Below are positions 3,737-20,676 of a stretch of 32,839 nt of DNA, piece by piece. How positions within the stretch are numbered: position 1 is the stretch's first letter; the number at the start of each line of letters is the position of its first letter. The DNA comes from Psychrobacillus soli (GTDB taxonomy: Bacteria; Bacillota; Bacilli; Bacillales_A; Planococcaceae). The stretch spans positions 1 through 32,839 of the forward strand of contig NZ_VDGG01000043.1 in assembly GCF_006861775.1 (NCBI RefSeq), in the 5' to 3' direction. The notes under the pieces are model-generated. The model was not told the origin of the DNA. It made no database searches and was given only the letters and a program-made list of their open reading frames with translations. Position numbers and translations under genes: made by a program.

Positions 3737-3798
3737 TCGTATTTTGTGTGGAACATGTTAAACTAGAGAAGACTATTTCGCTTGAAAGGAAGATGACC

Positions 3799-4989: not shown

Positions 4990-5005
4990 ATAGCTATAGA
5001 TAATA

Positions 5006-5048
5006 AAACCCTAATTATTTTGAAGTAACGTCAAAATAATTAGGGTTT
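5006..5048. terminator. Bidirectional terminator hairpin
   Basis: A perfect 18-bp stem: AAACCCTAATTATTTTGA at 5006-5023 pairs with 5031-5048 around a 7-nt loop. It lies between the convergent kbl and metallophosphoesterase genes. The T runs are short (three to four), so efficiency is uncertain. Confidence 0.7.
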
Positions 5049-5147
5049 ATTCAAATTTAAATGTAAAAGTATCGGTGCAAAAAAACGATGCTTTTTAAAT
5101 ATTGAAATACTTGTTCATATTAAAGTGTTTTAACTTTTTGAAGTTAA

Positions 5148-6080: not shown

Positions 6081-6147
6081 TTTCCTCACCTCAAGTCAAT
6101 ATTGTTATTCTAACTCTAATTATTTTTTAGGTGAATTCCTTCTTATG

Positions 6148-7749
6148 TTAGTCAGAAGGTATCTCCTGGAATTGGATATCAATATCGATACCTTTTTTCG
6201 CATTCACACGTTTCATAACGAAATAGGTGATAAGTGGGATACACATTAATAAGAGGGATACAACAATCATTGTAAATGGTAAGTCCCCTCTAAAGAATGG
6301 GATAAGTAGGTAGTAACAAATCGATACACTAATTGCGAGAGTTAACCAACCTAATATAGTAACGACATGTATACCTAAGAATTTCGCCTTGACTACCGGC
6401 GGCGAGGAATTAAACAATACTTTCTTCCTGGTTGAAAAAAGAATTCCTGATATACCCAAGAATATCCAAGCTAAGAACCAAGTAAAAATGGTATAAGCGA
6501 TATTTGCTGTCCATGAAGGTACAAATATATCGAGCATTAAGAAAAGCCATGCACCAATGATCACTGTTCTTAGTGCGTAAATAGGTGAATTTGTCTTTTT
6601 ATTGAGTTCGGTAAATTTTCTAGGGATTAATCTGTCAAAAGACCAAGCTACAATGTTACGAGAAGGTCCAAACCCTAAGCCAGCCGCTGAACCGAATGTT
6701 GCTACAGCAAAGCATATGGCGATTAAAAATACAAAAATAGGATTCTTTGTCATAATCCCTATCATAATCGTAATAAAAGGATCATAACTTCCAAATGGAT
6801 AAGCTTCATGGCCAGTATTATAAAGATGATACAGGCTGTTTGACCATATGTTACCAAAGTTGACATAAGTCATCCCATAGAAGATAGCCCAAAGAACCAT
6901 TAATATTACCAGTGATCCAAATAATGCCATTAATTGAGATTTTTGAACGTTGCGAACTTCACCGGCTAGATTAGCCCCAAAGGTTGAACCTAATGTATTA
7001 AGAATGATATAGGTGGATCCTGCCATGACAGTTGCACCAAACAGGAATTTAGTTGGATAACCATCTGCTTGTGCAAATTTAATGACATCATCATATGCTA
7101 CCCCTGTAAGTTCGGTAAAATTAGTAGCAAAAATACCTTGGCCAGATACGAGGTTGGCGATAATAAAGACGACAGCTCCCAAAAGGGTTGCACTCAATGT
7201 AAAATAAGCCAATTTTACCATCCACTTTGTACCTTTGTAATAAATAAAGTAAATAAATAAAAGAAGCGCTGTTCCGATAATGGCATGCATGTAATTTTTG
7301 TCAAAAAGTTCTGCCAAACCAAGCCATTTAGCGTCATTTCCATTAATAAGAGCAATTGAATAGAAGAATTCTACGATTGACCACTTCACAATCCAATTCA
7401 ACAGGATTCCAGTCCAAGAGATTGAAGTAAATGTAATCATAAAACTAGCCATTAAGCCTAGTGCCGGATGCAAAATACGGCTAATATAAATATATTCACC
7501 GCCTGACCGCGGCATTGATACTGAAAATAACCAGTATAATCCAGCAATAACAAACATCTGAGATACAGCTAGAATAGCCCAAACCATATGTGCACCTGGA
7601 TACAAAAATGGTGCCCACATAATATACACGAGTGCAAACATTAAACCAGGATTTGCAGCAGAGTAAATCATTGTATCGATTGGACTAATTTGCCTTGCAA
7701 CTCCGCCTGTTGTTTTCTGTTCAAATAATCCAAGACCACTTTGGGACAT
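6148..7749 (-). CDS. APC-family amino acid/amine permease
   Basis: Inner-membrane transporter of 533 aa with about 12 hydrophobic segments and cytoplasmic ends. It belongs to the amino acid-polyamine-organocation superfamily: the first segment carries the unwound-helix type sequence SAANPGLMFAL, and MPRSGGEYIYISR after the second segment is a superfamily hallmark. The start is ATG at 7749 with GGGAG six bases before it. The gene faces away from the BMC operon and is 306 nt from the SDR gene upstream on the same strand. Substrate unknown; an amino acid such as threonine, or an amine, would fit the neighbourhood. Confidence 0.85.
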   Translation of the reverse strand: MSQSGLGLFEQKTTGGVARQISPIDTMIYSAANPGLMFALVYIMWAPFLYPGAHMVWAILAVSQMFVIAGLYWLFSVSMPRSGGEYIYISRILHPALGLMASFMITFTSISWTGILLNWIVKWSIVEFFYSIALINGNDAKWLGLAELFDKNYMHAIIGTALLLFIYFIYYKGTKWMVKLAYFTLSATLLGAVVFIIANLVSGQGIFATNFTELTGVAYDDVIKFAQADGYPTKFLFGATVMAGSTYIILNTLGSTFGANLAGEVRNVQKSQLMALFGSLVILMVLWAIFYGMTYVNFGNIWSNSLYHLYNTGHEAYPFGSYDPFITIMIGIMTKNPIFVFLIAICFAVATFGSAAGLGFGPSRNIVAWSFDRLIPRKFTELNKKTNSPIYALRTVIIGAWLFLMLDIFVPSWTANIAYTIFTWFLAWIFLGISGILFSTRKKVLFNSSPPVVKAKFLGIHVVTILGWLTLAISVSICYYLLIPFFRGDLPFTMIVVSLLLMCIPLITYFVMKRVNAKKGIDIDIQFQEIPSD

Positions 7750-8055
7750 TTTTTCTCCCTTTCTTTCATAATAGTTTTTACACTACCCGACACTAAATGA
7801 GACTGTTTATGGAAATTTACTTATATAGCCAATAATTACTTGTTGTAATCTTGATTGCAGATTACCTTGAATATCGGAGAAGTCATCCTTTCAAAGTGTT
7901 CAATTACTCAATATATAGGGCTTTTTTGAAAAAAGGATAGAGCTTAGGGGGCTTGATATTTACCTAGATATCTAGCATTCTTTTTAGGTAGGTATGAATA
8001 GGCTCCAAAATAATTTACCTATTTTTAAGTTATGGAGGTCCTGGTGTTCTAATTT
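7750..8055 (-). promoter_or_regulatory. Leader region of minus-strand permease
   Basis: A 306-nt gap without a gene. On the minus strand TTGGCT (7827-7832) and TAAACA (7804-7809), 17 bp apart, are a weak sigma-A promoter candidate. A perfect 12-bp palindrome CTAGATATCTAG lies at 7964-7975, inside a wider TACCTA (7961-7966) / TAGGTA (7986-7991) inverted repeat. GTAATC (7845-7850) and GATTAC (7860-7865) form another small inverted repeat. No clear terminator for the SDR gene and no recognisable riboswitch or T-box is seen. Confidence 0.4.
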
Positions 8056-8820
8056 TTAATTTTCCGGTAATATTTGTCCTCCATCCACAATAATCGTTTG
8101 ACCTGTTATAAATCCAGCTTCTTTTGAGGCCAAGAAAAGCGCAGCGTAAGCGATATCTTCAACAGTTCCTAATTTCTTCATAGGAATCGAAGAAGCCATT
8201 TCTTTTAAATAATCTTCGCCCAATCCTTCCAAACCTTCAGTCATTACATTTCCTGGCATCACAGCATTTACTGTGATGTTATGACTTGCTAATTCTAGTG
8301 CAGCTGACCTCATGAAACCTAACTGCGCTGCTTTACTTGCAGCATAGTGTGTCCATCCTGGATAACCTGTAACAGGACCCGTAATTGACGAGGTAATCAC
8401 TATTCGACCGAATTCCGATTCTTTTAAATATGGTAGGCAAGCTTGGACAGTTAGAAATGTTCCCTTCGAATTCGTATTCATTACATGATCCCAGTCTGCG
8501 CTTGTCATGTCTTCAATTGTTGCTGATGGGAAAATCCCAGCGTTTGCACATAGTATATCAATGCTTCCAAACTTATCAGCTACTTTCTTTGCCATTGCCG
8601 CCATTGATTCACGATCTGATACGTCACCGCAAAATGCATAAGTAGATACATTGTTGTTACTTTCGTTTATTTCCGCGACACAATCTTCTGCAACAGAAAG
8701 GTTCCGCGCTACAACAGCTACATTCGCACCATGATTTGAGAACACTCGAGAAATTCCTTTTCCAATCCCCTTACTTCCACCGGTAACTATGACTGTCTTT
8801 CCTTGTAAAGAATGAAACAT
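8056..8820 (-). CDS. SDR dehydrogenase; candidate aminoacetone reductase
   Basis: Classical short-chain dehydrogenase of 254 aa. It shows the nucleotide-binding TGGSKGIG (residues 13-20), CANAG (91-95), catalytic Ser144/145 in TSSITGP and Y159-xxx-K163 in YAASK. The start at 8820 has AAGGAG at proper spacing; a 30-residue upstream extension in frame has no ribosome binding site and is rejected. It is divergent from the DeoR gene of the BMC operon. In the mycobacterial RMM microcompartment an SDR is a 1-amino-2-propanol dehydrogenase, so interconversion of aminoacetone and 1-amino-2-propanol is a reasonable guess. FabG-like reductases acting on other substrates look the same at this level. Confidence 0.85.
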   Translation of the reverse strand: MFHSLQGKTVIVTGGSKGIGKGISRVFSNHGANVAVVARNLSVAEDCVAEINESNNNVSTYAFCGDVSDRESMAAMAKKVADKFGSIDILCANAGIFPSATIEDMTSADWDHVMNTNSKGTFLTVQACLPYLKESEFGRIVITSSITGPVTGYPGWTHYAASKAAQLGFMRSAALELASHNITVNAVMPGNVMTEGLEGLGEDYLKEMASSIPMKKLGTVEDIAYAALFLASKEAGFITGQTIIVDGGQILPEN

Positions 8821-8923
8821 AATGAACAGCTCCTTTTTGAAATTCAATTGGATTCTTAGAGAAAACAACATCACTTCACAAAAAACTGCAATAAGTTGTT
8901 GTTTACTCATGTGAATCTAACTT

Positions 8924-8960
8924 CAGAATAATATATTCCTCTAGAAGTCAATATATTCTG
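8924..8960. promoter_or_regulatory. Inverted repeat over candidate SDR promoter
   Basis: CAGAATA (8924-8930) and TATTCTG (8954-8960) form an inverted repeat. On the minus strand TTGACT (8946-8951) and TATTCT (8925-8930) lie inside it, 15 bp apart, as a possible promoter for the SDR gene. Repressor binding here is an inference. Confidence 0.4.
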
Positions 8961-9013
8961 ACAATTGAAATGAGAAGAATTACTAAACAATACTCAATAT
9001 CTATTTTTGATCG

Positions 9014-9029
9014 AATCAACAAGTTGATT
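9014..9029. promoter_or_regulatory. Candidate DeoR operator
   Basis: AATCAAC-AA-GTTGATT is a perfect 7-bp inverted repeat with a 2-bp spacer, in the 332-bp interval between the divergent SDR and DeoR genes. Its position fits an operator shared by the two transcripts. DeoR-family proteins commonly regulate their own neighbouring operons. Confidence 0.45.
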
Positions 9030-9152
9030 GTTAACTTATAAATTAAATCCACAATAAAGAATGCAAATAAACAACAATCCACATTTTTTGTCGTGTTTTC
9101 TTCATAAGTTAGTAATGTCGAGAATAACATGGTTGTAGTTGGAGATGATGAA

Positions 9153-9929
9153 ATGTCTTTATCGTATGAGGAGAGAAAGAAGACAATATTGGAGCTTCTA
9201 GAGGAAAACGGGAAAGTGGTAGTGCGGAAAGTAGAGAAGTTACTAAATGTCTCTGGGGAAACCGTAAGAAGAGATTTAGAAAGACTTGAAAAAGAAGGGT
9301 TTCTGAAAAAGGTTTATGGGGGTGCTGTTAAAAATAGGGTAACGTTTGAATTGCCTTTCGATCAAAAAACAATGTTAAATGCAAAGGAAAAAAGTGCGAT
9401 TTGTAAAAAAGCAGCAGAACTAGTAGAAGACAGTGATGTAATATTTATCGGACATGGTACAACCGTTTTGGAACTTGTTCGTTTTTTAAATAATAAAAAG
9501 AACGTAACAATTATAACTCCATCTTTACCTGTATTACTGTTAGCCAATGAACACTTTGAAGGGAAAATTATCTTTCTTGGAGGAGAATTCGAAAGAGATC
9601 AAAAGTTTACAAGTGGTCCTTTAGAAGAAATGGCGTTAAGGCATTTAAAAGCAAACAAGGCTTTCTTTTCTGCCGGAGGGATTTCCATAGAAGATGGAAT
9701 ATCGGACTATGATTTAAGTGGAGCAAGAAGCTCAAGAACAATGATGGAGAGATCCAATGAAGTCATTGTATTAGCAGATTCCGCTAAGTTTAATCTCACT
9801 ACCTTGGCTAATATTGGAAAACTTTCGGAAGTGTCTATCATTATTACAGATAAAAATTGTTCAGATCAAATGAAAATGAAACTACTAGAACAAAATGTTG
9901 AATTAATAGTTTCAGATGAAATGGAATAA
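9153..9929 (+). CDS. DeoR-family transcriptional regulator
   Basis: Repressor-type regulator of 258 aa, first gene of the BMC operon. The N-terminal winged helix-turn-helix is clear, with VSGETVRRDLERLEKEG and KKVYGGAV near residues 30-60. The C-terminal DeoRC sensor domain follows, with GHGTTVLELVRFL near residue 105 and LADSAKF near residue 210; this fold typically binds a phosphorylated small molecule. The ATG at 9153 is preferred to that at 9129 because GGAG sits at 9141-9144. The likely effector is a phosphorylated pathway intermediate, for example a phospho-amino alcohol; that is inference from the family. Confidence 0.9.
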   Translation: MSLSYEERKKTILELLEENGKVVVRKVEKLLNVSGETVRRDLERLEKEGFLKKVYGGAVKNRVTFELPFDQKTMLNAKEKSAICKKAAELVEDSDVIFIGHGTTVLELVRFLNNKKNVTIITPSLPVLLLANEHFEGKIIFLGGEFERDQKFTSGPLEEMALRHLKANKAFFSAGGISIEDGISDYDLSGARSSRTMMERSNEVIVLADSAKFNLTTLANIGKLSEVSIIITDKNCSDQMKMKLLEQNVELIVSDEME

Positions 9930-9958
9930 GACTGAAATTTTCAGAGGGGAAGGATAAA

Positions 9959-11224
9959 ATGGTGCAATCTTTAACAAAACAAAAGGTATTACAACAATCA
10001 ATCGATTGGTGGAATCCTGGTAAAACAAGGTCTTGGCAAGATGATGGAATTGATTTAGTTATTGGCAAACGAGAAGGGTACTACTTTTACGATATGGACG
10101 GGAAAAAGTTGATGAACGTTCATTTGAATGGTGGAACATATAATTTAGGTCATCGAAACCAAGAACTGATCAATACAATGATAGAAGCCACTGAACATTT
10201 CGATATAGGAAATCATCACTTCCCATCTATTATGCGAGCAAAACTAGCAACGAAACTAGCAGAAGTTACTCCAGAAGGATTAAAATATACTATTTTCTCA
10301 AGTGGAGGAAGTGAAGCAATTGATGCAGCTTTGAAAAGTGCTAGATATGCTACAAAAAGAAGAAAAATTGTATCGATAAAAAATGGATATCACGGTCACA
10401 CGGGACTAGCTGTTTCTTTAGGAAATGAACGCTACTCTAAAATATTTTTAAGTGAAGGGGATCCAAATGTGTTTGTACATGTCCCATTCAATGATCTAGA
10501 GGCAATGGAACGCGAAATCTCTAAAGGAGATGTAGCATGCGTCATTATAGAGACGATACCTGCAACTTACGGCTTCCCGTTACCGGATCCTGGGTACCTT
10601 CAAGCTGTAAAAAGAACATGCGAGCGATACGGGACATTATATATTGCGGATGAAGTACAAACTGGCTTAATGCGAACTGGTAAACTATGGGGAATTGACC
10701 ACTACGGAGTGAAACCAGATATTTTAGTAACTGCTAAAGGATTTGGTGGGGGAATTTATCCAATTGGAGCAACCATTATTTCAGAACAGGCTGGTCAGTG
10801 GATGAATGAAGATGGACTAGCACATATTTCTACTTTTGGTGGATCTGAGATTGGTTGTGCAGTTGCGTTGAAAGTATTGGAAATCTCCGAAAGACCAGAA
10901 GTTGTACAAAATGTTGATTATGTTGCTCGTTATTTGAGAATGGGGTTAGAAAATTTAATGAGTAAATATCCTGATTTCTTTGTAGGTATTCGGCAATTAG
11001 GTGTAGTAATGGGTTTAGAGTTCAATCATCCAGAAGGAGCAAAATATGTGATGAGTTCCTTGTATAAGCACGGTGTTTGGGCAATCTACTCGATGCTTAA
11101 TACAAGGATTGTTCAATTTAAACCAGGTTTATTGTTAAACAAAGATTATTGTGATGAATTACTAACAAAATGCGAAGCTGGAATAAGGGAAGCAGCGATT
11201 GAATTAGGGTTTGTAGGAAGATAA
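9959..11224 (+). CDS. Class III aminotransferase-fold enzyme; candidate phospho-lyase
   Basis: PLP-dependent fold-type I enzyme of 421 aa. It shows SSGGSEA (114-120), GYHGHTG (143-149), DEVQTG (231-236) and the PLP lysine K260 in TAKGFGGG. Class III members include true aminotransferases and the ethanolamine-phosphate and 5-phosphohydroxylysine phospho-lyases. The next gene is an APH-type kinase and the locus makes an aldehyde-using compartment. That context favours a phospho-lyase that removes ammonia and phosphate from a phospho-amino alcohol to give propionaldehyde or acetaldehyde. No encapsulation peptide is evident at either end, so it may act in the cytosol or at the shell. The fold is certain, the reaction inferred. 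Confidence 0.88.
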   Translation: MVQSLTKQKVLQQSIDWWNPGKTRSWQDDGIDLVIGKREGYYFYDMDGKKLMNVHLNGGTYNLGHRNQELINTMIEATEHFDIGNHHFPSIMRAKLATKLAEVTPEGLKYTIFSSGGSEAIDAALKSARYATKRRKIVSIKNGYHGHTGLAVSLGNERYSKIFLSEGDPNVFVHVPFNDLEAMEREISKGDVACVIIETIPATYGFPLPDPGYLQAVKRTCERYGTLYIADEVQTGLMRTGKLWGIDHYGVKPDILVTAKGFGGGIYPIGATIISEQAGQWMNEDGLAHISTFGGSEIGCAVALKVLEISERPEVVQNVDYVARYLRMGLENLMSKYPDFFVGIRQLGVVMGLEFNHPEGAKYVMSSLYKHGVWAIYSMLNTRIVQFKPGLLLNKDYCDELLTKCEAGIREAAIELGFVGR

Positions 11225-11278
11225 GGAATTATAGCAATGGATTTACAGCGGAAGGGTAAACGAAATGGAGGGGTCCAT

Positions 11279-12301
11279 ATGTCGGATAAGGATTTAGGGT
11301 TACTGGAAAATGTAATTGAAAATTTTCATACAGCTGCAAAATTAGCGAAAAAGAATTACAGGAATTTAGATAACTACTCTCTTAAATTATTAAATTATTC
11401 GGAGAATGCTACGTATTTGTTAAGTAGTACAGAAGCGGATGAAAAGTTTATCTTAAGAATCAACAGACCAAATTATCATACAAAAGAAGAAATAGAAGGC
11501 GAGATCAGATGGATAATAGATCTGCATAAATATTCTTCAATTGATGTCCCTCAGCCACTTCCTGGGGATACTGGAGTATTTGTATATGAGCAAGTGATTG
11601 GAGACTTGACTTATTATAGTACGCTCTTTACTTTCCTGGAGGGGGTAGCACCGGATGAGAACAATGAGGAGAAGCTTGCTTCCCAGTTCGAATTACTAGG
11701 GGAGGTTACTGCAAAAGTTCACGTGGAAGCGGTTAAAAAACATGATGAATTTAGCAAAGTTAAAAGATTAACATGGGATTTCGATACTATTTTGGGTGAG
11801 GCACCAAAATGGGGAAAATGGCAAAATGGACAATTGATGAATCCCGAAAGAATTGCATTGCTAGAAAAAGTTGTAAAAGTAATAAAAGAAAAGTTGGAAT
11901 ATTATGGGAAGTCTAAGAATAGATTTGGATTAATCCATGCAGATTTGAGATTAGCTAACTTATTAGTTGAAGGGGACAAAATTAAAATAATAGATTTTGA
12001 TGATTGTGGATTTGGGTGGTATTTGCAGGATTTATCTTCTGCTTTAAGCTTTATCGAGGATAAGCCTTATGTCGATTATCTGATTGCAGCATATTTAAAA
12101 GGGTATCGCAGACATCGTGAATTATCTAAAGAAGATATCGAAATTATCCCGACACTAGTATTGCTTAGAAGATTACAGCTCATCTCCTGGTTAGGTAGTC
12201 GAGATAATGATACGACAAGATCCATTGGTCCGGATTACTCTGTAGGTACAGACGCACTTGCTAAAGGATATTTAGATAAATATGAAGGGGTAAGGGGGTA
12301 G
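11279..12301 (+). CDS. APH-family kinase; candidate amino-alcohol kinase
   Basis: Cytoplasmic small-molecule kinase of 340 aa from the aminoglycoside / choline / homoserine kinase superfamily. The catalytic loop is HADLRLANLL with D222 and N227, and the metal-binding motif is IDFDD at residues 238-242. The ATG at 11279 follows GGAGGGG closely; the in-frame ATG at 11237 has no ribosome binding site. It stands between the phospho-lyase-like gene and an ethanolamine-type permease, so the natural reading is ATP-dependent phosphorylation of imported or internally made 1-amino-2-propanol or ethanolamine. Classical work on pseudomonads and Erwinia describes an aminopropanol kinase acting with a phospho-lyase. 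Confidence 0.87.
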   Translation: MSDKDLGLLENVIENFHTAAKLAKKNYRNLDNYSLKLLNYSENATYLLSSTEADEKFILRINRPNYHTKEEIEGEIRWIIDLHKYSSIDVPQPLPGDTGVFVYEQVIGDLTYYSTLFTFLEGVAPDENNEEKLASQFELLGEVTAKVHVEAVKKHDEFSKVKRLTWDFDTILGEAPKWGKWQNGQLMNPERIALLEKVVKVIKEKLEYYGKSKNRFGLIHADLRLANLLVEGDKIKIIDFDDCGFGWYLQDLSSALSFIEDKPYVDYLIAAYLKGYRRHRELSKEDIEIIPTLVLLRRLQLISWLGSRDNDTTRSIGPDYSVGTDALAKGYLDKYEGVRG

Positions 12302-12305
12302 ATGG

Positions 12306-13682
12306 ATGGGTACAAACAAGCAAAGTATGGAACTTAAACGGACCTTAACTCCTCTACATTTATGGGCTATTGGAGTAGGAATTGTAATTTCAGGAAATTA
12401 TTTTGGATGGAACTTTGGATTAGCCGAATCCGGTTATGTAGGCATGCTTATTGCGGTAGTCTTTATGGCGATTATGTATGGAAGTATGAGCTTAGGAATA
12501 TCTGAATTATCGACGATGCTTCCGTATGCTGGTGGACCATATTCATTTGCACGCAGAGCGATGGGGCCGTATGTTGGATTTTTGACGGGGATAGGGGTTG
12601 TATTAGAATATTTCATCGCTGCTCCAACTGTTGCAATTGGAATTGGTGGATATATTAGTTTCTTATTCCCAACAGTAAATACAGTAGTAGCAGCAGCAGT
12701 CATGTATTTAATATTTATGATTATCCATATTGTCGGCATTAAAGAGTATGCGCGAATTGAAATGGTTTTAGTGTTTATCGCTTTAGGATTACTTGTATTA
12801 ATGTATTTCGTGGGACTACCTCAGATCAATGTGGAAAACTTATTCGGTGCTGAAGGTACAGCATTAATACCAGGTGGGATTAAGGGCATTTGGGCGGCAT
12901 TACCTTATGCCATGTGGTTGTTTCTCGCGATTGAAATGTTACCAATGCTTTCAGAGGAAACGAGAGATGTAAATAAAGATATGCCAAAGGGAATACTTTC
13001 TGGCATGATTACACTTCTTATTTTATCACTAGTTACAACTACTGTTGCTATCGGTTTAGCTGGCATAGATGTAATGTCAACAGCTACAGATCCATTACCT
13101 GCAGCGATAGCGGCCACATTTGGTAACACTTATTGGCTAGCGCAAATATTGGCATCAGTAGGATTAGTTGGACTTATTGCTAGTTTTTCAGGTGTTATTC
13201 TTGCGTACTCTAGACAAGTGTTTGCTTTATCAAGAGCAGGGTATTTACCTAACTTTTTATCGAGACTTCATAAAACAAGACGTACTCCATATGTAGCAAT
13301 TATTGCACCAGGAATTATCGGTTTGTTACTCGTCATATTCTTTGATCCTAATGATTTAATATTGATTGCAACTTTTGGTGCATTAATCTCTTATATTGCG
13401 ATGAATTTATCGGTACTCATTCTTCGCAAAAAAGAGCCGAATTTACCTAGAGCATTTAAAACACCACTTTATCCAATTACTCCAATCGTATCATTAGTGC
13501 TAGCAGTGATTGCGATCTTTGCGAGCTTCTTTGCAAATTTATCTTTCTTCTTCCTCAATCTTATCATCTTTGCAATAGCGAGTATTTATTACTTCGTTTG
13601 GGCAAAAAACAATATTAATACGGATGCTCCGGAAGAAAGATTTGTGACTGAAAAGGAATCGGAAAATAATGAAAAACATTAA
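12306..13682 (+). CDS. Ethanolamine-type APC permease
   Basis: Membrane transporter of 458 aa with about 12 hydrophobic segments. GVGIVISGNYFGWNFGLAE (near residues 22-40) and MLPYAGGPYSFARRAMGP (near residues 70-87) closely recall the ethanolamine permease group of the APC superfamily. Uptake of ethanolamine or its methyl homologue 1-amino-2-propanol fits the kinase just upstream (4-nt gap). The start is ATG after AAGGGGGT. The 3' end overlaps the HAD gene by 14 nt, suggesting coupled translation. The family is firm; the substrate is inferred. Confidence 0.87.
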   Translation: MGTNKQSMELKRTLTPLHLWAIGVGIVISGNYFGWNFGLAESGYVGMLIAVVFMAIMYGSMSLGISELSTMLPYAGGPYSFARRAMGPYVGFLTGIGVVLEYFIAAPTVAIGIGGYISFLFPTVNTVVAAAVMYLIFMIIHIVGIKEYARIEMVLVFIALGLLVLMYFVGLPQINVENLFGAEGTALIPGGIKGIWAALPYAMWLFLAIEMLPMLSEETRDVNKDMPKGILSGMITLLILSLVTTTVAIGLAGIDVMSTATDPLPAAIAATFGNTYWLAQILASVGLVGLIASFSGVILAYSRQVFALSRAGYLPNFLSRLHKTRRTPYVAIIAPGIIGLLLVIFFDPNDLILIATFGALISYIAMNLSVLILRKKEPNLPRAFKTPLYPITPIVSLVLAVIAIFASFFANLSFFFLNLIIFAIASIYYFVWAKNNINTDAPEERFVTEKESENNEKH

Positions 13683-14400
13683 AACTAGTTGTGTTCTGTT
13701 TGATAAAGATGGAACTTTGATAGATTGTGATGCACTTTGGATCCCGTGGGTGGAGGACATTTACGAATTTTTAATCGTAAAGGTGCCCCAATTTAAGACA
13801 TCATACAATGAATTTGGATTACCACTCGGGATTTTGGATAACGGCAAAATATTAGATCCAGTAAGTCCAGTAGCTGTCGGAAGCATCACGGAAAGTCACG
13901 TAATAATAGCACTCAAGCTATATGAAGCTGGTGTCCACTGGGTCGATGCGATGATTTTTGCGGGGGAAGCAGTAGCGTATGCAAACGAAAAGCAAAATAA
14001 TTCGACACTTATCACTAAAATTGCTGGCGTTGAAGAAGTGATACGAGAATTAAAAAATAGAAATATAAAGCTAGGTGTTTTAACCGCTGATGATACAAAA
14101 AAAGCGATAAATCATCTTGAAACAGTTGGATTGAAGCATTACTTCGATTTTATATTAGGTACTGATTTAGTCACTCGAAGTAAACCTTATCCAGATATAG
14201 CTTTTTTGGCTAAGGATAATTATGGCATTAATCTAGAAGAATCAGTGATGATCGGTGACTCTAACGGGGATATGATTCTTGGAAAAGAATCTGGTATGAG
14301 ATTAATGGTAGGTTTCAATGAAAACAATCAAGTTCTAAGAGATGCGGATTTAATGATTAATCACTACTCTACATCACTTATAGAAAAAATATTGTACTAA
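13669..14400 (+). CDS. HAD-superfamily phosphatase
   Basis: Predicted Mg-dependent hydrolase of 243 aa. Motif I is DKDGTL near residue 12, motif II is LTADD near residue 141, the motif III lysine is in SKPYPD near residue 168, and motif IV is IGDSNGD near residue 189. An alpha-helical cap lies between motifs I and II, as in phosphoglycolate phosphatase-like members. It overlaps the permease gene by 14 nt and precedes the small EP protein by 12 nt, so it belongs to the BMC operon. Its substrate is unknown; it might remove wasteful phospho-amino alcohol or another phosphorylated side product. Confidence 0.82.
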   Translation: MKNIKTSCVLFDKDGTLIDCDALWIPWVEDIYEFLIVKVPQFKTSYNEFGLPLGILDNGKILDPVSPVAVGSITESHVIIALKLYEAGVHWVDAMIFAGEAVAYANEKQNNSTLITKIAGVEEVIRELKNRNIKLGVLTADDTKKAINHLETVGLKHYFDFILGTDLVTRSKPYPDIAFLAKDNYGINLEESVMIGDSNGDMILGKESGMRLMVGFNENNQVLRDADLMINHYSTSLIEKILY

Positions 14401-14412
14401 AGGGGGGAGCAT

Positions 14413-14688
14413 ATGGATCTTGAATTAGTTGAAAAGGTAACAAGAATGGTTTTGGAAAAATTAGGAGCTATCCAAACAGGCTCTGGCCTAACGGATACAG
14501 AAATAGAAAACTGGAAACGAAATGACTTATTAGCAAGGGTGCAAGTGTCTAGAACGGCAAGACTTTCTGAAGCAAGACCACTCTCAATAGAAGAGATTTC
14601 AAAGTGGCAGAGTCTAGACTTTTTAAAACAAGCACCATCGTTTTCGGCAAAAAATAAGGATGAAGTAATCTTTAGAAAATACCAATAA
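14413..14688 (+). CDS. Small BMC-operon protein with encapsulation-type N-terminus
   Basis: Not recognised as any characterised family. The 91-aa product begins MDLELVEKVTRMVLEKLG, an amphipathic helix with the hydrophobic spacing of BMC encapsulation peptides, followed by a Gly/Ser/Thr linker. The remaining ~65 residues are charged and helical, with RTARLSEARPLSIEEIS in the middle and no obvious active-site motif. The strong site AAGGGGGGAG precedes the ATG. It sits directly before the aldehyde dehydrogenase gene, 26 nt apart. A role as scaffold, adaptor or small cargo is possible; nothing in the sequence proves it. Confidence 0.75.
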   Translation: MDLELVEKVTRMVLEKLGAIQTGSGLTDTEIENWKRNDLLARVQVSRTARLSEARPLSIEEISKWQSLDFLKQAPSFSAKNKDEVIFRKYQ

Positions 14689-14714
14689 AAACTGAAAGAA
14701 AAGGAGTGATCCTT

Positions 14715-16226
14715 TTGAGTACAAATGAACTAACTTCTGCGGAAGAACTCATTATCAGTAATGCCAGTAATGCCCAAAAAGCTTACCAAGAGTTCTCACA
14801 AGAACAGGTAGATCATATTGTGAAAATCGTAGCGGAAAAGGTACAGAAACATTCTTTAGAACTTGCAAAAATGGCGGTAGCGGAAACAGGAATGGGTGTT
14901 GTTGAACATAAAGAGATGAAAAATAATATCGCTTCCCTGGAGATTTATAAGTCTATTAAAGATGAAAAGACTGTTGGTATTATTCGAGAAGATTTTAGAA
15001 GTAAGATCGTAGAGATGGCATATCCATTTGGATTAGTATTAGCGATTACGCCAGTAACAAATCCAACTTCGACCGCAATCTTTAAGACGTTGATTTCTTT
15101 GAAAACACAAAATGCAGTTATTTTTAGCCCACATCCACATGCTGTAAAAAGCACGATAGCTGCTTTGAAAATATGCCATGATGCTGCTGTAGAAGCAGGA
15201 GCACCAGAAGGATTAATAGGCTGGATTAGTGAGCCCACGATGGGGAAAACGCGAGAGCTGATGCGGCATAAAAAAGTAAATTTAATCCTCGCAACAGGTG
15301 GAAGTGGTCTTGTAAAAGCAGCGTATAGCTCAGGTAAACCTGCATACGGAGTTGGGCCTGGAAATGTACCAGTTTATATAGATAAAAACGCTAATGTGAT
15401 ACAAGCTGCAAAGTTTATAGCAGAAAGCAAGGCTTTTGATAACAGTACGCTATGCTCAACAGAACAAGCAATTGTCGTTCATGCAAGTGTTAAGCGCATA
15501 TTTATGAATGAGCTACAGAAGCATAGTGTTTATGTATTAAATGATTTCGAAAAACAAAAAGTAGCGAGAATTATATCTCCTGAAATTGGAAAGTTGAACG
15601 CTGAAATTGTAGGGAAATCAGCATTAGCAATTGCAGCTATGGTTGGCATTCATGTCCCCAAGGAAACTCGGGTATTGGTAGCCGAAGAAAGTGGAATTGG
15701 AAAGAAGTTTCCTTTTTCAGTCGAGAAGCTATCTCCAATTCTTGGACTCTATACGGCTAAAGATGAAGATGATGGCATTGAGATTTGCAGCGGCTTACTT
15801 GATATTGGCGGTCGAGGGCATACCTTTGCGATACATGCAAATGACAATAGAGTCGTTAAAAAGTTCGCAAAACAAATGCCAGTGTCGAGGGTTATTGTAA
15901 ATACCTACTCTTCGATCGGAGCACCTGGTGGATCTACTGGATTAACTCCATCATTAACATTAGGTTGTGGATCATACGGCGGTAATATAACGGGAGATAA
16001 CATTACAGCGAAACATCTTATCAATATTAAACGAATAGCAACGGGGATAAAAGAAGTGAAAATACCTTTTTCAAAGAGTGACCATCATCTGGAAGAATTC
16101 ACTTCAAATAGGTCAGAACCTTTAGAGTCTATTGTAAATAAAGTGATTCAAGATTCGAAAGCGTCGGTTGATAGTGAACTAGTTTTAAAACTAGTTAAAA
16201 ATGTAATTCAAAACTATTCAAACTAA
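14715..16226 (+). CDS. CoA-acylating aldehyde dehydrogenase with C-terminal EP
   Basis: Oxidises an aldehyde to acyl-CoA using NAD and CoA; the central BMC cargo enzyme. The 503-aa product has the acylating family's catalytic Cys247 in FDNSTLCSTEQAIVV, close to the AdhE / BMC aldehyde dehydrogenase pattern, and TGGSGLVKAAYSSGKPA near residues 194-210. After a ~30-residue linker the protein ends with a helix, LVLKLVKNVIQNYSN, that looks like a C-terminal encapsulation peptide. The start is TTG at 14715, eight bases after AAAGGAG; an earlier GTG overlaps that site. Propionaldehyde or acetaldehyde is the expected substrate. Confidence 0.93.
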   Translation: MSTNELTSAEELIISNASNAQKAYQEFSQEQVDHIVKIVAEKVQKHSLELAKMAVAETGMGVVEHKEMKNNIASLEIYKSIKDEKTVGIIREDFRSKIVEMAYPFGLVLAITPVTNPTSTAIFKTLISLKTQNAVIFSPHPHAVKSTIAALKICHDAAVEAGAPEGLIGWISEPTMGKTRELMRHKKVNLILATGGSGLVKAAYSSGKPAYGVGPGNVPVYIDKNANVIQAAKFIAESKAFDNSTLCSTEQAIVVHASVKRIFMNELQKHSVYVLNDFEKQKVARIISPEIGKLNAEIVGKSALAIAAMVGIHVPKETRVLVAEESGIGKKFPFSVEKLSPILGLYTAKDEDDGIEICSGLLDIGGRGHTFAIHANDNRVVKKFAKQMPVSRVIVNTYSSIGAPGGSTGLTPSLTLGCGSYGGNITGDNITAKHLINIKRIATGIKEVKIPFSKSDHHLEEFTSNRSEPLESIVNKVIQDSKASVDSELVLKLVKNVIQNYSN

Positions 16227-16244
16227 ATTAGAGGAGGAATTTTA

Positions 16245-16526
16245 ATGACAAGAGAAATTAATGGATCATTAGGTATGATTGAAACAAAAGGTTTAGTAGG
16301 TGCAATTGAAGCTGCAGATGCAATGGTAAAGGCGGCAAATGTAAATTTAGTCGGCAAAGTGCATGTTGGAGGTGGAATTGTAACCGTGTTAGTAACCGGT
16401 GATGTTGGAGCAGTGAAGGCTGCAACTGAAGCAGGAAGCGAAGCAGCACAACGTGTAGGAGAATTATTATCTGTACATGTCATTCCAAGACCGCATTCAG
16501 AACTGAGCGTTATTCTTCCTAGCTAG
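16245..16526 (+). CDS. BMC-H hexameric shell protein 1
   Basis: Canonical single-domain BMC shell protein of 93 aa. It resembles EutM/PduA along its whole length: [25 protein letters not shown] at the start (conserved edge Lys29), the pore loop VGGG at residues 41-44 and the ending [12 protein letters not shown]. Hexamers of this type tile the flat facets of the shell, and the Gly-rich pore passes small polar metabolites. The ribosome binding site is GGAGG. It lies between the aldehyde dehydrogenase and pduL genes. Confidence 0.97.
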
Positions 16527-16542
16527 AAAGGTGGCGTACTAA

Positions 16543-17211
16543 ATGGATGAGTTATTGGAAACGAAAATTATGCAAGAGCTGTTAAAGGAATTATCTATAA
16601 CAGAACAGCCATTAATTCCAATCGGCGTTTCGGCTAGACATTGCCATTTATCTGAAGAAGATTTTCACATGCTTTTTGGTAATGATGCCAATTTAACAGT
16701 ATACAAAAATCTTCTTCAGCCCGGGCAATACGCAGCAAATGAAACAATACTAATCGCAGGTCCAAGAGGTAGTATTGAAAAGGTAAGAATTTTAGGACCG
16801 TTTCGAAAGTCTACACAAGTGGAAGTAAGCTATACAGACGCTTTAAAATTGGGTGTAAAACCACCTATTCGTCAATCTGGGGATATTCATAAATCAGCAC
16901 CGATTACACTTGTAGGTCCAAAAGGTGGTATTTACAAAGAAATGGGGCTAATAATTGCCCAATCGCATATTCATATGTCCCCTGACGATGCGCAAAAATT
17001 AAAAGTTGTAAATGGTGAAACCGTAACTGTAGAAGTTTCAACTAGTTTGAGAAGAATACGATTTATGGATACCATTATACGAATTTCACCGGACTATGTA
17101 CTCGAAATGCATATAGACACGGATGAGGCAAATGCAGGTAATATAACGGAAAATAACTATGGGCGAATCATAAAAGAGGGAGCAAGAAGCCATGAACGGG
17201 CTCCTGATTGA
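16543..17211 (+). CDS. pduL: PduL-type phosphate propanoyltransferase
   Basis: BMC phosphotransacylase that converts acyl-CoA and phosphate to acyl phosphate and recycles CoA inside the shell. The 222-aa product has the two metal-binding regions of the family, GVSARHCHLS (His33, His35) and QSHIHMSP (His142, His144). It is unrelated to Pta. The first 18 residues, MDELLETKIMQELLKELS, form an encapsulation-peptide-like helix. The 3' end overlaps the next gene by 20 nt. No acetate or propionate kinase gene is present in the window, so ATP recovery would use an enzyme encoded elsewhere. Confidence 0.93.
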   Translation: MDELLETKIMQELLKELSITEQPLIPIGVSARHCHLSEEDFHMLFGNDANLTVYKNLLQPGQYAANETILIAGPRGSIEKVRILGPFRKSTQVEVSYTDALKLGVKPPIRQSGDIHKSAPITLVGPKGGIYKEMGLIIAQSHIHMSPDDAQKLKVVNGETVTVEVSTSLRRIRFMDTIIRISPDYVLEMHIDTDEANAGNITENNYGRIIKEGARSHERAPD

Positions 17212-17857
17212 TGAAATAGTAAAAGAGGTATTGGATAGATTACAACAAAGTGAGAGGTTAAAAAGTAGTTCTCCAGTTTTAGTAGTTCATCCACATACAA
17301 CAGCTTCCAATTCGAGTGTCAAGGAACTGGAGAGATACTTCAGTTTGATGGAAATAAATTGTAATTCGCCGCAATCACTTAAAATCTCAAATGATGTAAA
17401 ATGGGCAATTATGCTAGAAGCAGACCAAAGTTTGATTGTTAAAGGAGCACTTTGTTTAACAGATTGTGCTCCTAGCAAATTGCTTGCACAACTTATTATG
17501 CAAAACATGCCAATATTTATCGTTCCAGAAGAAGAAGCTAAATTATTTCTGGAAGAGCAAGACATGAAGTCCCGATTTGTAAATAACAATTATTTCAGGC
17601 AACTAATGAAATATAAAGAAAAATTATCTGAATACGGGGTAGCGATATGTACAATTCAGGAAGTATTAAAACAGAAAATACAAGTAATACAATATGATCA
17701 AGCAAATAGTTATTCAAAAAAGCTTATTACTGAATCTGTAATTGAAAACTGGGAAAAAAGAGATATTCATATATTAAGTAACACAATTGTCACTCCTCTA
17801 GCAAGGGACTTAGCAAAGCAAAAAGGCATTGAAATTAAAGTAGAGGAGGAGAGCTAA
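17192..17857 (+). CDS. BMC-associated protein with EP and EutQ-like C-terminus
   Basis: A 221-aa protein that I cannot assign to a characterised enzyme. The N-terminal MNGLLIDEIVKEVLDRLQQ resembles an encapsulation peptide. The middle is an alpha/beta domain with VLVVHPHTT near residue 30 and a segment around residues 70-125 rich in branched residues, somewhat like the flavoprotein-like proteins of other BMC loci. The last ~45 residues, LITESVIENWEKRD then NTIVTPLARDLAKQKGI, recall the N-terminal element of EutQ. It overlaps pduL by 20 nt and ends 1 nt before the BMC-P gene. Its role is unknown; cargo or assembly factor is likely. Confidence 0.8.
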   Translation: MNGLLIDEIVKEVLDRLQQSERLKSSSPVLVVHPHTTASNSSVKELERYFSLMEINCNSPQSLKISNDVKWAIMLEADQSLIVKGALCLTDCAPSKLLAQLIMQNMPIFIVPEEEAKLFLEEQDMKSRFVNNNYFRQLMKYKEKLSEYGVAICTIQEVLKQKIQVIQYDQANSYSKKLITESVIENWEKRDIHILSNTIVTPLARDLAKQKGIEIKVEEES

Positions 17858-17858
17858 T

Positions 17859-18131
17859 ATGATTCTGGGAAAAGTAGTAGGAAATACATGGGCCACAAGA
17901 AAAGAAGATGGATTGAATGGATTGAAGTTTTTAATCGTTCAACCTATAAATATAAATGGTAAACGTGATGAAGCAAAATCTATCATAGCTGTCGATCGAA
18001 TTGGGGCTGGGGTGAATGACATAGTGCTTATAACGCAAGGCTCTCCCGCTTCTATTATTGGGGAAAGAAAAGTGCCGATTGATGCCGTCATTATAGGAAT
18101 TATCGACGAAAAAGTAGAAAGTGGTGAGTGA
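17859..18131 (+). CDS. BMC-P (EutN/CcmL) pentameric vertex protein
   Basis: Shell protein of 90 aa that forms pentamers capping the vertices of the compartment. Family features are the opening GKVVGNTWATRKEDGLNG, AVDRIGAGVNDIVLITQGSPAS near residues 43-65 and the ending PIDAVIIGIID. It is the only BMC-P gene seen here. The ribosome binding site GAGGAGGAG lies within the end of the upstream gene. The stop TGA is 1 nt before the start of the second BMC-H gene. Confidence 0.95.
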   Translation: MILGKVVGNTWATRKEDGLNGLKFLIVQPININGKRDEAKSIIAVDRIGAGVNDIVLITQGSPASIIGERKVPIDAVIIGIIDEKVESGE

Positions 18132-18132
18132 A

Positions 18133-18567
18133 ATGAATGAATCCATAGGATTGGTGGAGACCATAGGATTGGCAATCTCTATCTATATCGCTGACGCAAT
18201 GCTAAAAGCATCCAATGTGCATCTCGTAAATCAGACAACAGTCGATGTAGCCCTTGTAACCGTTGTTGTAAGAGGTGATGTAAGCTCTGTTCAGGCTGCG
18301 GTAGAAATAGGGGAAGAAATAGCGAAACGTGCAAACTCATTTGTTTCATCGAAAGTTATTGCGAATCCTGATACCTCTACAGCAAAGTTAGCTTCCGAAA
18401 TAACAAAATCAAATACTGTAGGAACCCATATACTTTCGCAAAATATAAAGCAAACGTCGTCTAGCAAGGAAAAAAATACGCAGACGCCCTTGGCAAATCC
18501 AAAATTAGTAGAATCTATAGATGAAAAATTGGATAGTCCTCCTATTCATATTAATAAGTCGGAATAA
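18133..18567 (+). CDS. BMC-H shell protein 2 with altered pore and tail
   Basis: Divergent single-domain BMC shell protein, 144 aa from the ATG at 18133; a GTG at 18121 in frame overlaps the previous gene and lacks a site of its own. The BMC domain covers residues 1-75 (SIGLVETIGLAI, MLKASNV, VVVRGDVSSVQAAVEIG). Where BMC-H1 has the pore loop VGGG, this protein has VDVA (residues 37-40), which would place an acidic side chain near the pore. A ~70-residue Ser/Thr/Lys-rich, probably disordered tail follows. It may make a pore of different selectivity or bind cargo. Confidence 0.9.
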   Translation: MNESIGLVETIGLAISIYIADAMLKASNVHLVNQTTVDVALVTVVVRGDVSSVQAAVEIGEEIAKRANSFVSSKVIANPDTSTAKLASEITKSNTVGTHILSQNIKQTSSSKEKNTQTPLANPKLVESIDEKLDSPPIHINKSE

Positions 18568-18584
18568 TGAAAGGAGTCATTTAG

Positions 18585-19520
18585 ATGATATTTAAGAGAA
18601 ATAAGATTGGCATTGTTGGAGCTGGAAATACTGGTACAATGATTGCTTTAATGCTTGCACAAAAAGAACTTGGAGATATTGTACTAATTGATAGACCTGA
18701 ATTAGAACAACCGGTAAAAGGAAAAGCATTAGACTTATTGGAGTCAATGCCTATTCAAAAAAAAGATGTCCGAATTCTAGGTACAAGTGATTATCAAGAA
18801 CTTACAGATGCTAGTATTATAATCATCACTGCAGGGATGCCGAGAAAACCTGGTATGAGTAGGGATGACTTAATAAATACAAATTCTGAAATAATGCAAA
18901 AAGTCTCCAAAGAAATAAAAAGGTATGCACCCAATTGCTATGTAATTGTATTGAGCAATCCGGTGGATGTAATGACGTATACTTGCTTAAAAACAACTGG
19001 ATTCCCCAAAAAACGAGTTATCGGCCAATCAGGAGTTTTAGATACAGCGCGATTTAATACTTTTATAGCAGAGGCTCTTAATATCTCGGTAGAAGATTTA
19101 ACTAGCTTTGTTCTTGGCGGTCATGGTGACACGATGGTTCCCATGTTGCGATTCTCATTTGTTGGTGGAATTCCACTAGAGCGAATTATGCCCATTGAAC
19201 AAATTGAGGAGATAGTAGAAAGAACTAGAAATGGCGGAGCTGAAATCGTTCACTTATTAGGTAATGGTAGTGCTTATATTGCTCCAGCTGCAGCGGTTGT
19301 TCAGATGACTGAAACAATTTTAAAGGATAAAAGAAAAATAATTCCAGTTGTTGCGTATTTAGAAGGAGAGTATGGTTACAACGATATTTGTTTAGGTATC
19401 CCATGTGTACTTGGCGGATCAGGTGTAGAGGCGATCATCGAAATTAAACTTACAGATTCAGAAAAAAAGATGCTTGATCGTTCCGCACAATCAGTTCAGG
19501 AAACGATGAATCTACTATAA
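18585..19520 (+). CDS. mdh: NAD-dependent malate dehydrogenase
   Basis: 311-aa member of the LDH/MDH family, close to the Bacillus malate dehydrogenase. It shows GIVGAGNTG (9-17), the NAD-selecting Asp36, Arg87 of [11 protein letters not shown] where lactate dehydrogenases carry Gln, Asp153 and catalytic His180 in GGHGD. Malate rather than lactate is therefore expected. No encapsulation peptide is visible. It is the last gene of the BMC run, 17 nt after the shell gene with AAGGAG before the start, and is followed by a terminator. In Bacillus, mdh usually accompanies citZ and icd, so this is probably an extra copy. It may reoxidise NADH made by the aldehyde dehydrogenase or serve propionyl-CoA use. 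Confidence 0.9.
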
Positions 19521-19527
19521 ATTACTT

Positions 19528-19573
19528 AAAAAGAAGGAACGATATCTAAGGATAATCTGTTTCTTTTTTTTTT
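19528..19573 (+). terminator. Probable terminator of the BMC operon
   Basis: AAAAAGAAGGAAC at 19528-19540 pairs imperfectly with the TGTTTCTTTTT region from 19559, with a small palindromic core between and a run of ten or more T residues. Confidence 0.65.
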
Positions 19574-19598
19574 GAGTATTTCTCCTGGAAATCTCTTA

Positions 19599-19679
19599 TT
19601 GTATTTTCTAAAAGAACAACATATAATAGAAAAAATTAAACATTACCAATACAACGTTATACAACAAGAAGTGTTCTTT
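19599..19679 (+). promoter_or_regulatory. Promoter and inverted repeat before tdh
   Basis: TTGTAT (19599-19604) and TATAAT (19622-19627) are 17 bp apart, a good sigma-A promoter. AAAGAACA (19611-19618, inside the spacer) and TGTTCTTT (19672-19679, in the leader) are perfect inverted repeats that could be a two-site operator or a leader stem. It indicates that tdh is transcribed separately from the BMC operon. Confidence 0.65.
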
Positions 19680-19716
19680 CCAAAAATACAATTGTTTTCG
19701 AGAGGGAGTAGACAGC

Positions 19717-20676
19717 ATGAAAAAAATTATGATCACCGGAGCTTTAGGGCAAATTGGTTCTGAACTTATTACAAAACTACGCAAAGAATATGGTGCAGAA
19801 AATGTACTTGCAACAGATATAAGACGGATTTCGTCAGAAGCAACGAAAAGCGGCCCTTTTGAAGTATTGGATGTAACAGACGGGGAAAAGATGCATCAAA
19901 TCGCCAAAAACTTTGGAGCAGATACGATGATGCATATGGCGGCACTTTTATCGGCAACTGCGGAAGCAAAACCACTATTTGCTTGGAACTTGAACATGGG
20001 TGGACTTATGAACGCACTAGAAACTGCTCGTGACTTAAACATGCAATTTTTCACACCAAGCTCAATTGGAGCATTTGGGCCATCTACTCCTAAACAAAAT
20101 ACTCCCCAAGATACACTTCAACGTCCGACTACGATGTATGGTGTGAACAAAGTAGCAGGAGAGCTTCTTTGTGATTATTACTTCCACAAATTCGGCTTAG
20201 ATACGCGTGGTGTACGTTTCCCGGGATTGATTTCAAATGAGACATTACCTGGTGGGGGAACGACCGATTATGCGGTAGATATTTATTACAAAGCGTTAGC
20301 AGAAGGGAAGTACACATCCTATATCGCAGAAGGAACATATATGGATATGATGTATATGCCAGATGCCCTTCAAGCAATTGTGGACTTAATGGAAGCAGAT
20401 GCTTCGAAACTAATTCACCGAAATGCATTTAATGTAACCGCGATGAGCTTTGAGCCAGAGCAAATTGCTGCTTCTATTAAAAAAGTGATGCCAACATTTA
20501 CAATGGATTACGATGTGGATCCTGTTCGCCAAGCAATTGCGAATAGCTGGCCAGATGCGATTGATGCTACTGCTGCCAAAAATGAGTGGGGCTTTACTTA
20601 TAAATATGATCTAGATGCAATGACGAAAGATATGCTAGAAAAACTAGCAACAAAAAAAACAGCAGACACCTTTTAA
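19717..20676 (+). CDS. tdh: L-threonine 3-dehydrogenase, SDR type
   Basis: Extended short-chain dehydrogenase (UDP-galactose epimerase fold) of 319 aa, oxidising L-threonine to 2-amino-3-ketobutyrate with NAD. It shows TGALGQIG (7-14), AALLSATAE near residue 75, [10 protein letters not shown] (113-122) and the Y141-xxx-K145 pair. The [19 protein letters not shown] and MMYMPDAL segments mark the threonine dehydrogenase group rather than sugar epimerases. The ribosome binding site is GAGGGAG. The natural partner kbl lies at 3799 on the same strand, beyond the BMC block. The product loses CO2 readily to give aminoacetone, a possible feed for that pathway. Confidence 0.9.

Follow-up and report, generated by a model that had tools for sequence, protein, structure and literature searches.

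A putative B12-independent amino-alcohol microcompartment cluster located between kbl and tdh in Psychrobacillus soli

Gene content of the cluster

We analyzed a 32,839-nucleotide stretch of the Psychrobacillus soli genome (contig NZ_VDGG01000043.1, positions 1 to 32,839 of the forward strand; hereafter, the window), which carries a bacterial microcompartment (BMC) gene cluster that we discuss here as a candidate B12-independent metabolosome for amino alcohols. The cluster contains a plus-strand operon of 13 genes at 9129-19520, in which neighboring genes overlap or are separated by gaps of at most 29 bp. In order, the operon encodes the following proteins, where PLP stands for pyridoxal phosphate.

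9129..9929, plus strand: DeoR-family regulator (DeoRC and HTH_DeoR matches)
9959..11224, plus strand: class III PLP enzyme, proposed phospho-lyase (Aminotran_3; Thr/Gln at the transaminase Glu/Arg sites)
11237..12301, plus strand: APH-type kinase, proposed 1-amino-2-propanol kinase (PDB 6ef6, E 2e-66, residues 26-348)
12306..13682, plus strand: ethanolamine-permease-family transporter, Eat (TIGR00908, 446 bits versus a cut-off of 382)
13669..14400, plus strand: HAD-family hydrolase (Pfam HAD_2)
14413..14688, plus strand: U91, a 91-residue protein, proposed loading adaptor (16-row alignment)
14706..16226, plus strand: CoA-acylating aldehyde dehydrogenase, AldDH (top PDB matches 5j78 and 3k9d; tree)
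16245..16526, plus strand: BMC-H 1, basal facet type (PF00936; KAAN and PRPH motifs)
16543..17211, plus strand: PduL phosphotransacylase (PF06130; NF011652 above cut-off)
17192..17857, plus strand: accessory protein, distant TIGR02536 relative (38 bits versus a cut-off of 153)
17859..18131, plus strand: BMC-P vertex protein (PF03319)
18121..18567, plus strand: BMC-H 2, extended at its C-terminus by about 60 residues (PF00936)
18585..19520, plus strand: malate dehydrogenase (MDH) paralogue, proposed NADH recycler (TIGR01763, 439 bits versus a cut-off of 352)

Three further genes lie upstream on the opposite strand.

5148..6089, minus strand: metallophosphoesterase-like protein, MPE (weak Pfam Metallophos match)
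6148..7749, minus strand: APC-family permease, APC2, 533 aa (Pfam AA_permease_2)
8056..8910, minus strand: short-chain dehydrogenase (SDR), probable 1-amino-2-propanol/aminoacetone dehydrogenase (PDB 3pk0, 6ci9)

An earlier note on this DNA had named the two BMC-H proteins, the BMC-P, AldDH, PduL, kinase, PLP enzyme, HAD protein and malate dehydrogenase, and we recovered all of them as intact frames. The Eat-type permease, U91, the TIGR02536 relative and the minus-strand SDR, APC permease and phosphoesterase are additional to its list. The note had also reported that ethanolamine ammonia-lyase was absent; in agreement with this, a search of the genome gave no EutB match, and the control matched in E. 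coli. A search of the genome for diol dehydratase gave no match, and its positive control matched nowhere either. The range that the note gave, 9153-19520, corresponds to the operon, but the operon starts at 9129. Since the minus-strand genes recur beside the cluster in other genomes (see below), the unit is larger than this range and also includes the minus-strand block at 5148-8910.

Recurrence in other genomes

We scanned named bacterial genomes with the PLP enzyme alignment and obtained 25 loci, of which one (L063, 30% identity) was excluded and 24 were counted. The kinase was found at 23 of these 24 loci, and an SDR with at least 59% identity to that at window 8056-8910 was found at 21. 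Fifteen loci showed at least one BMC-H gene in the slice of sequence analyzed, and several of the other nine are short contigs. In eight loci of Neobacillus, Bacillus and Virgibacillus, the APC permease (84-89% identity) and the phosphoesterase (78-84%) adjoin the cluster; one of these eight, L052, has no shell gene in its slice. Four relatives from genus g3 have a gene order near that of the window, with the divergent dehydrogenase visible in three of the slices. The gene set thus recurs in similar order across other Bacillales genomes, which argues that its assembly is not due to chance.

Individual loci showed several variations. The HAD hydrolase is also present in the Lysinibacillus, genus g3 and L044 loci. 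L136 (G237), 12284-13700, one of the four genus g3 loci, is otherwise similar to the window, without PduL and with an MDH match of just 41 residues in the slice. In Lysinibacillus antri (L039, with L140 taken to be the same locus), U91, BMC-H, PduL and the SDR are present, and AldDH and BMC-P are not in the slice. In Aquibacillus albus (L059, 6168-13204), EutA-EutB-EutC are directly followed by PLP enzyme-kinase-SDR, in a slice without shell genes. A Bacillota-type PLP-kinase-SDR set (68% PLP enzyme identity) was seen on L058, a possibly misbinned contig from a metagenome-assembled genome assigned to Sphingobacterium. The kinase-PLP-SDR trio was also found on an Agrobacterium plasmid, with no shell genes in that slice.

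Active site and phylogeny of the class III PLP enzyme

Class III transaminases use a Glu/Arg pair for their half reaction with the 2-oxo acid, and the loss of this pair is a criterion for class III phospho-lyases. In all 24 full-length rows of the PLP clade, the window included, the Glu site (E of GEGG) is occupied by Thr followed by Tyr, and the Arg site is occupied by Gln; the partial sequence of L061 was left out of this alignment. Alignment to putrescine aminotransferase gave the same Thr and Gln at the two sites. The window enzyme has therefore lost the pair, as has one other class III enzyme of this genome (L071; see below). Glu and Arg are retained in L069 and L070 of the same genome, which are the only controls because L071 has other residues at the two sites and L073 and L075 are gapped at the Arg site. 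Elsewhere, the two sites hold Ser and Lys in the enzymes of Rhodococcus jostii, Agrobacterium and Acinetobacter, and Ser and Arg in that of Tsukamurella.

The last four enzymes are linked to related kinases, and that of R. jostii belongs to the RMM-type microcompartments of Mycobacterium and Rhodococcus. PRK06148 and PRK06149, the top models for the enzymes of R. jostii, Agrobacterium and Acinetobacter, are outside the best 25 of the 69 models matched by the window enzyme. In the phylogenetic tree, the PLP clade was monophyletic (100/99), as were the RMM-type PLP enzymes (100/100). An independent origin of the two lineages was not established, in that a tree joining them passes the approximately unbiased test (p 0.37). 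Our literature searches found no paper on this PLP clade, whose phospho-lyase activity is a prediction.

Kinase and short-chain dehydrogenase

The SDR matched PDB entries 3pk0 (300 bits, E 1.5e-88) and 6ci9 (296 bits, E 2.9e-87), and its real start is probably at about residue 31. The PDB entries found for the kinase and the SDR are labeled just ‘aminoglycoside phosphotransferase’, ‘short-chain dehydrogenase’ and ‘3-oxoacyl-ACP reductase’. We take 6ef6 to be the aminopropanol kinase, and 6ci9 the aminopropanol dehydrogenase, of the Mycobacterium smegmatis RMM compartment; these two enzymes were reportedly the subject of work by Mallette and Kimber in 2018. The window kinase is 35% identical to the R. 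jostii kinase, and the window SDR is 59% identical to the SDR beside the Agrobacterium kinase/PLP pair.

Aldehyde dehydrogenase, shell proteins and malate dehydrogenase

Next to these features stands an AldDH and shell block that resembles those of ethanolamine (EUT) microcompartments. In a 30-row tree, which carried a long-branch warning that included the window row, 12 of the 14 AldDHs from PLP-clade loci formed one clade (98/95); those of Bacillus marasmi (L044) and Paenibacillus sp. (L048) grouped with ten EUT AldDHs (100/99), and the sole RMM row, from R. jostii, was on a very long branch far outside. The AldDHs that accompany PLP-kinase genes thus come from two branches, and the pairing may have arisen twice. 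The window AldDH is 51% identical to that of the EUT locus L022 versus 38% to that of R. jostii, and the corresponding values for BMC-H 1 are 84% and 68%. Ten EUT loci of the window's taxonomic family have the order AldDH-BMC-H-PduL-BMC-P-BMC-H-MDH together with EutA, EutB and EutC, some with a second PduL; a Pfam check of L022 also found EutH, EutP and a 215-residue BMC protein. Genome G049 has both an EUT locus and a PLP-kinase locus.

Because the P. soli genome holds just two PF00936 genes, both single-domain and both in the operon, it has no BMC-T. The KAAN and PRPH motifs, which characterize basal facet hexamers according to passages of PMC8217296, are present in BMC-H 1 and absent from BMC-H 2. 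By eye, helices resembling targeting peptides were seen at the C-terminus of AldDH and at the N-termini of PduL and the accessory protein.

AldDH, PduL and the shell genes of a metabolosome set are present, and NAD+ recycling would be performed by the malate dehydrogenase. All 20 full-length MDHs of BMC loci have the malate-type Arg and retain the other active-site motifs (L040, L041 and L042, which are cut by slice ends, were left out), whereas the lactate dehydrogenase-like L076 of the same genome has Gln. This malate-type active site makes a malate/oxaloacetate valve possible. A separate MDH, L077, is encoded in the genome and is 61% identical. Eight matches to Fe-dependent alcohol dehydrogenases also lie elsewhere in the genome, so that alcohol could be formed as well.

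The small protein U91

The window copy of U91 has an N-terminus resembling a targeting peptide and two L-S/T-x-x-E-I-x-x-W repeats. The family has the helix consensus MDxxLVEKITRLVLSKLEE, two or three L-T/S-x-x-E-x-x-x-W repeats and, in most members, a VKF-like tail. A U91-type gene was found at all 16 shell-bearing loci of the PLP search set (the 15 named loci and the window), and also in L052, where the slice shows no shell genes. L053, L055 and L057-L062 gave no match to a sequence pattern for the family, but this pattern also missed two true members, L040 and L049, the latter of which was read by eye. Among 261 genomes of the order, full-length U91 was found in all 13 PLP-clade genomes and in none of the 248 others; at least three of the 13 (the window's, G049 and G279) had supplied rows of the U91 model and match by construction, and the four genus g3 genomes had not.

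Another 13 weak matches, in 12 other genomes and at a second place in G274, covered model positions 1-44 at most and lay in frames of 320-348 residues; the two that could be placed (G035 and G020) fall in EutC. A V/I-K-F/L-Y motif like the U91 tail was seen by eye in eight of the ten EutC linkers of the family's EUT loci, with VKFF in L026 and none in L036. The EutC N-terminal linkers of L021-L029 contain a helix resembling a targeting peptide. U91 could not be assigned to a known domain: Pfam gave no hit for the window copy, and any one family was hit by at most two of the 16 members. AlphaFold predicted three helices for it, in a model of low confidence (mean pLDDT 64). We propose that U91 is a loading adaptor for the PLP enzyme.

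Probable insertion between kbl and tdh

The cluster lies between two genes of threonine metabolism.

3748..4989, plus strand: kbl, glycine C-acetyltransferase, left flank (TIGR01825 and NF005394 above cut-off)
4984..19588, no strand assigned: block of about 14.6 kb that is missing between kbl and tdh in sister genomes (nine sister loci)
19717..20676, plus strand: tdh, SDR-type L-threonine 3-dehydrogenase, right flank (PDB 7ol1, 480 bits)

DNA alignment of the window with nine sister loci showed that the match ends at window 4983-5006 and restarts at 19542-19681. tdh occurs in 18 of the 19 genomes of the window's genus, the window's own included. kbl adjoins tdh in 9 of the 17 sister slices; the other eight show no kbl within the slice, some of them at contig ends. 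Given that the PLP gene was found in only one of the 19 genomes, insertion of about 14.6 kb is likelier than many losses. The kbl and tdh products make and use 2-amino-3-oxobutyrate, which is a known precursor of aminoacetone. The insertion site thus offers a suggestive link between the locus and aminoacetone, noticed only in hindsight.

Scans for promoters and terminators returned fewer sites than shuffled sequence did and carry no weight, with the exception of one long hairpin at 5006-5048; this near-perfect 21-bp hairpin lies between kbl and the inserted block and is perhaps a terminator. No clear operator emerged from the inverted repeats close to the DeoR gene.

Comparison with known systems

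The RMM compartment has been proposed to convert aminoacetone to propionyl-CoA (passages of PMC8156839). Passages of PMC4207490 describe RMM loci as lacking a complete core and as having a GntR regulator, and passages of PMC8217296 place RMM1 and RMM2 in a BMC-T tree. RMM1/RMM2 (Aaum/Aut) of Mycobacterium and Rhodococcus and the window share homologous kinases and SDRs, a class III PLP enzyme, a CoA-acylating AldDH, BMC-H and BMC-P, and an Eat-type permease nearby (the window permease is 37% identical to that near the R. jostii RMM locus). However, the window PLP enzyme belongs to its own clade and has other residues at the Glu/Arg sites, and the window AldDH groups with other Bacillales AldDHs, far from that of R. 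jostii. The window also has a DeoR instead of a GntR regulator, lacks BMC-T, and has PduL, malate dehydrogenase and U91 in addition. We therefore did not assign the cluster to RMM: the kinase and SDR agree with that type, and the PLP type, AldDH branch, BMC-T and GntR do not. The RMM likeness suggested by the earlier note holds in this sense for the kinase and SDR, but the PLP enzyme, the AldDH (in the tree), the regulator and the shell make-up are different. In R. jostii pRHL2 (L064, 7525-13014), the RMM block BMC-H/EutN/hypothetical/BMC-domain protein appears twice, with identical protein accessions.

The earlier note had also considered a Bacillales version unusual. It is not new as such: according to passages of Ravcheev et al. 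2019 (PMC6620236), one Firmicutes case of the ‘Aut’ cluster has been reported, and the paper names Lysinibacillus fusiformis ZB2, which it discusses, and Brevibacillus agri BAB-2500. This is probably the same locus type, and Lysinibacillus boronitolerans (L042) carries a window-type locus. The same passages state that BMC-associated aminotransferases of three phyla are monophyletic and that Firmicutes AldDHs form a separate branch; the latter is consistent with our AldDH tree, and the deep split between the window PLP enzyme and the single R. jostii enzyme (23% identity) does not settle the former. The passages name neither U91 nor malate dehydrogenase and say nothing of a deep split among the PLP enzymes.

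The EUT2-type ethanolamine BMC of Bacillales shares with the window the downstream block AldDH-BMC-H-PduL-BMC-P-BMC-H-MDH and the type of its AldDH and BMC-H. It differs in having EutA, EutB and EutC (in L022, also EutH and the 215-residue BMC protein) in place of the PLP enzyme, kinase, permease, HAD and U91. With no EutB in its genome and no B12 enzyme in the cluster, the window falls outside the EutBC-defined EUT type. Ethanolamine-phosphate phospho-lyase and PbfA are class III PLP lyases (passages of PMC8154272); they share the fold and the 1,2-elimination proposed for the window enzyme, which scores 201 bits against the PbfA model, whose cut-off is 525.

Judging by sequence resemblance, the kinase and SDR are similar to those of aminoacetone compartments, the shell and AldDH are similar to those of Firmicutes EUT, and the PLP enzyme and small targeting protein are the cluster's own. 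Thus, the RMM/‘Aut’ kind is known, and the differences here are the PLP enzyme and U91.

Proposed pathway and alternatives

Taking as observed the genes and their families, their conservation, the kbl-tdh position, the changed PLP active site and the malate-type active site, we consider, with modest confidence, that this is a gene cluster for a B12-independent metabolosome of amino alcohols, whose substrates are most likely aminoacetone and 1-amino-2-propanol. We infer each catalytic step in this organism, as well as encapsulation, the role of U91 and the malate shuttle. In this pathway, aminoacetone (from threonine via tdh) or imported 1-amino-2-propanol would be interconverted by the SDR, and the kinase would convert 1-amino-2-propanol to its O-phosphate. 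The PLP enzyme would then release propanal from the O-phosphate with elimination of phosphate and ammonia. The shell-targeted AldDH would convert propanal to propanoyl-CoA, and PduL would convert this to propanoyl-phosphate, which frees CoA. NAD+ would be regenerated by malate dehydrogenase using oxaloacetate, and U91 would attach to the shell an enzyme that has no tag of its own, probably the PLP enzyme. The kinase/phospho-lyase route to a shell-handled aldehyde, as put forward in the earlier note, is thus the best-supported reading, with the lyase activity of the PLP clade as a predicted element.

Several observations weigh against this reading. The PLP enzyme is only 23-28% identical to the kinase-linked PLP enzymes of R. 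jostii RMM, Agrobacterium, Acinetobacter and Tsukamurella, and the annotation of the R. jostii RMM slice lists no SDR. In none of the slices of the 25 named loci were kbl or tdh seen. By eye, MDH, the PLP enzyme, the kinase and the SDR have no targeting peptide. Among the 15 shell-bearing loci, 9 showed BMC-P, 13 showed AldDH (all but L039 and L050) and 14 showed PduL (all but L047). MDH matches came from 12 loci; three of these matches are cut by the slice end and one is a 62-residue fragment. In addition, the genome, which is rated 100% complete, gave no match to acetate kinase (PF00871) or to Pta (PF01515), in searches whose controls matched in 9 and 10 of 14 and which did not extend to EutQ-type kinases or acylphosphatase. 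PduL is thus without its usual partners, and the use of propanoyl-phosphate is unexplained.

The earlier note had left the substrate as 1-amino-2-propanol or ethanolamine. If it were ethanolamine, the kinase would make phosphoethanolamine, the PLP enzyme would yield acetaldehyde, and the shell would be a B12-free replacement for EUT. This fits the permease, which scores above the cut-off of a model named for ethanolamine (TIGR00908), although the R. jostii RMM locus, too, has an Eat-type permease nearby. It also fits the AldDH, which resembles acetaldehyde enzymes and, like BMC-H, is EUT-like, the occurrence of the same downstream block after EutABC within the window's family, and the Aquibacillus locus, where EutABC adjoin PLP-kinase-SDR. 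However, it would leave the conserved aminopropanol-dehydrogenase-like SDR without a use, the kbl-tdh site points to aminoacetone, and the coexistence of an EUT locus and a window-type locus in G049 suggests different substrates. Because of the linked SDR and the insertion site, we favor 1-amino-2-propanol and regard ethanolamine as unlikely, though a serious candidate.

We also considered the possibility that the PLP enzyme is a transaminase. In the published prediction for the related cluster (passages of PMC6620236), lactaldehyde is formed by transamination and phospholactate follows; here, 1-amino-2-propanol would give lactaldehyde, AldDH would give lactyl-CoA and a phosphotransferase would give phospholactate. 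The best solved matches of the window enzyme are indeed transaminases, and in L071 the two sites hold Gly and Ala, so that loss of the Glu/Arg pair alone is no mark of a lyase. A plain transaminase is nevertheless weakened by the Thr and Gln that replace this pair; moreover, the kinase appears similar to an amino-alcohol kinase, and the CoA-release step would already be performed by PduL. We therefore regard this scheme as improbable. It is more improbable still that the locus is degenerate or scavenged, with shell genes as relics and a cytosolic pathway. The nine PLP-clade loci without a shell gene in the slice, several of them on short contigs, the patchy BMC-P and AldDH, and L136, whose slice lacks PduL and most of MDH, would agree with such a relic. 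However, all window genes are intact, helices resembling targeting peptides were seen by eye on AldDH, PduL, U91 and the accessory protein, and U91 accompanies every shell-bearing locus.

Returning to the amino-alcohol metabolosome, a more specific and rather doubtful scenario is that, in an EUT-derived shell, a kinase and a class III PLP phospho-lyase of a new lineage took the place of the B12 signature enzyme, possibly on two occasions. As a new adaptor family with a targeting peptide, two or three Trp repeats and a tail, U91 would load the untagged lyase and may stem from the EutC targeting tail, and reducing equivalents would exit the lumen as malate, not alcohol.

If the proposed pathway is true, then Bacillales would feed an aldehyde into an EUT-like shell without vitamin B12, and signature enzymes would be exchangeable while the shell and AldDH persist. 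The PLP clade would add a new lyase lineage to the class III PLP enzymes, and the small protein U91 would be a candidate adaptor for loading microcompartments that is open to experimental test. A link from threonine through tdh and aminoacetone to a microcompartment likewise becomes testable with this locus.

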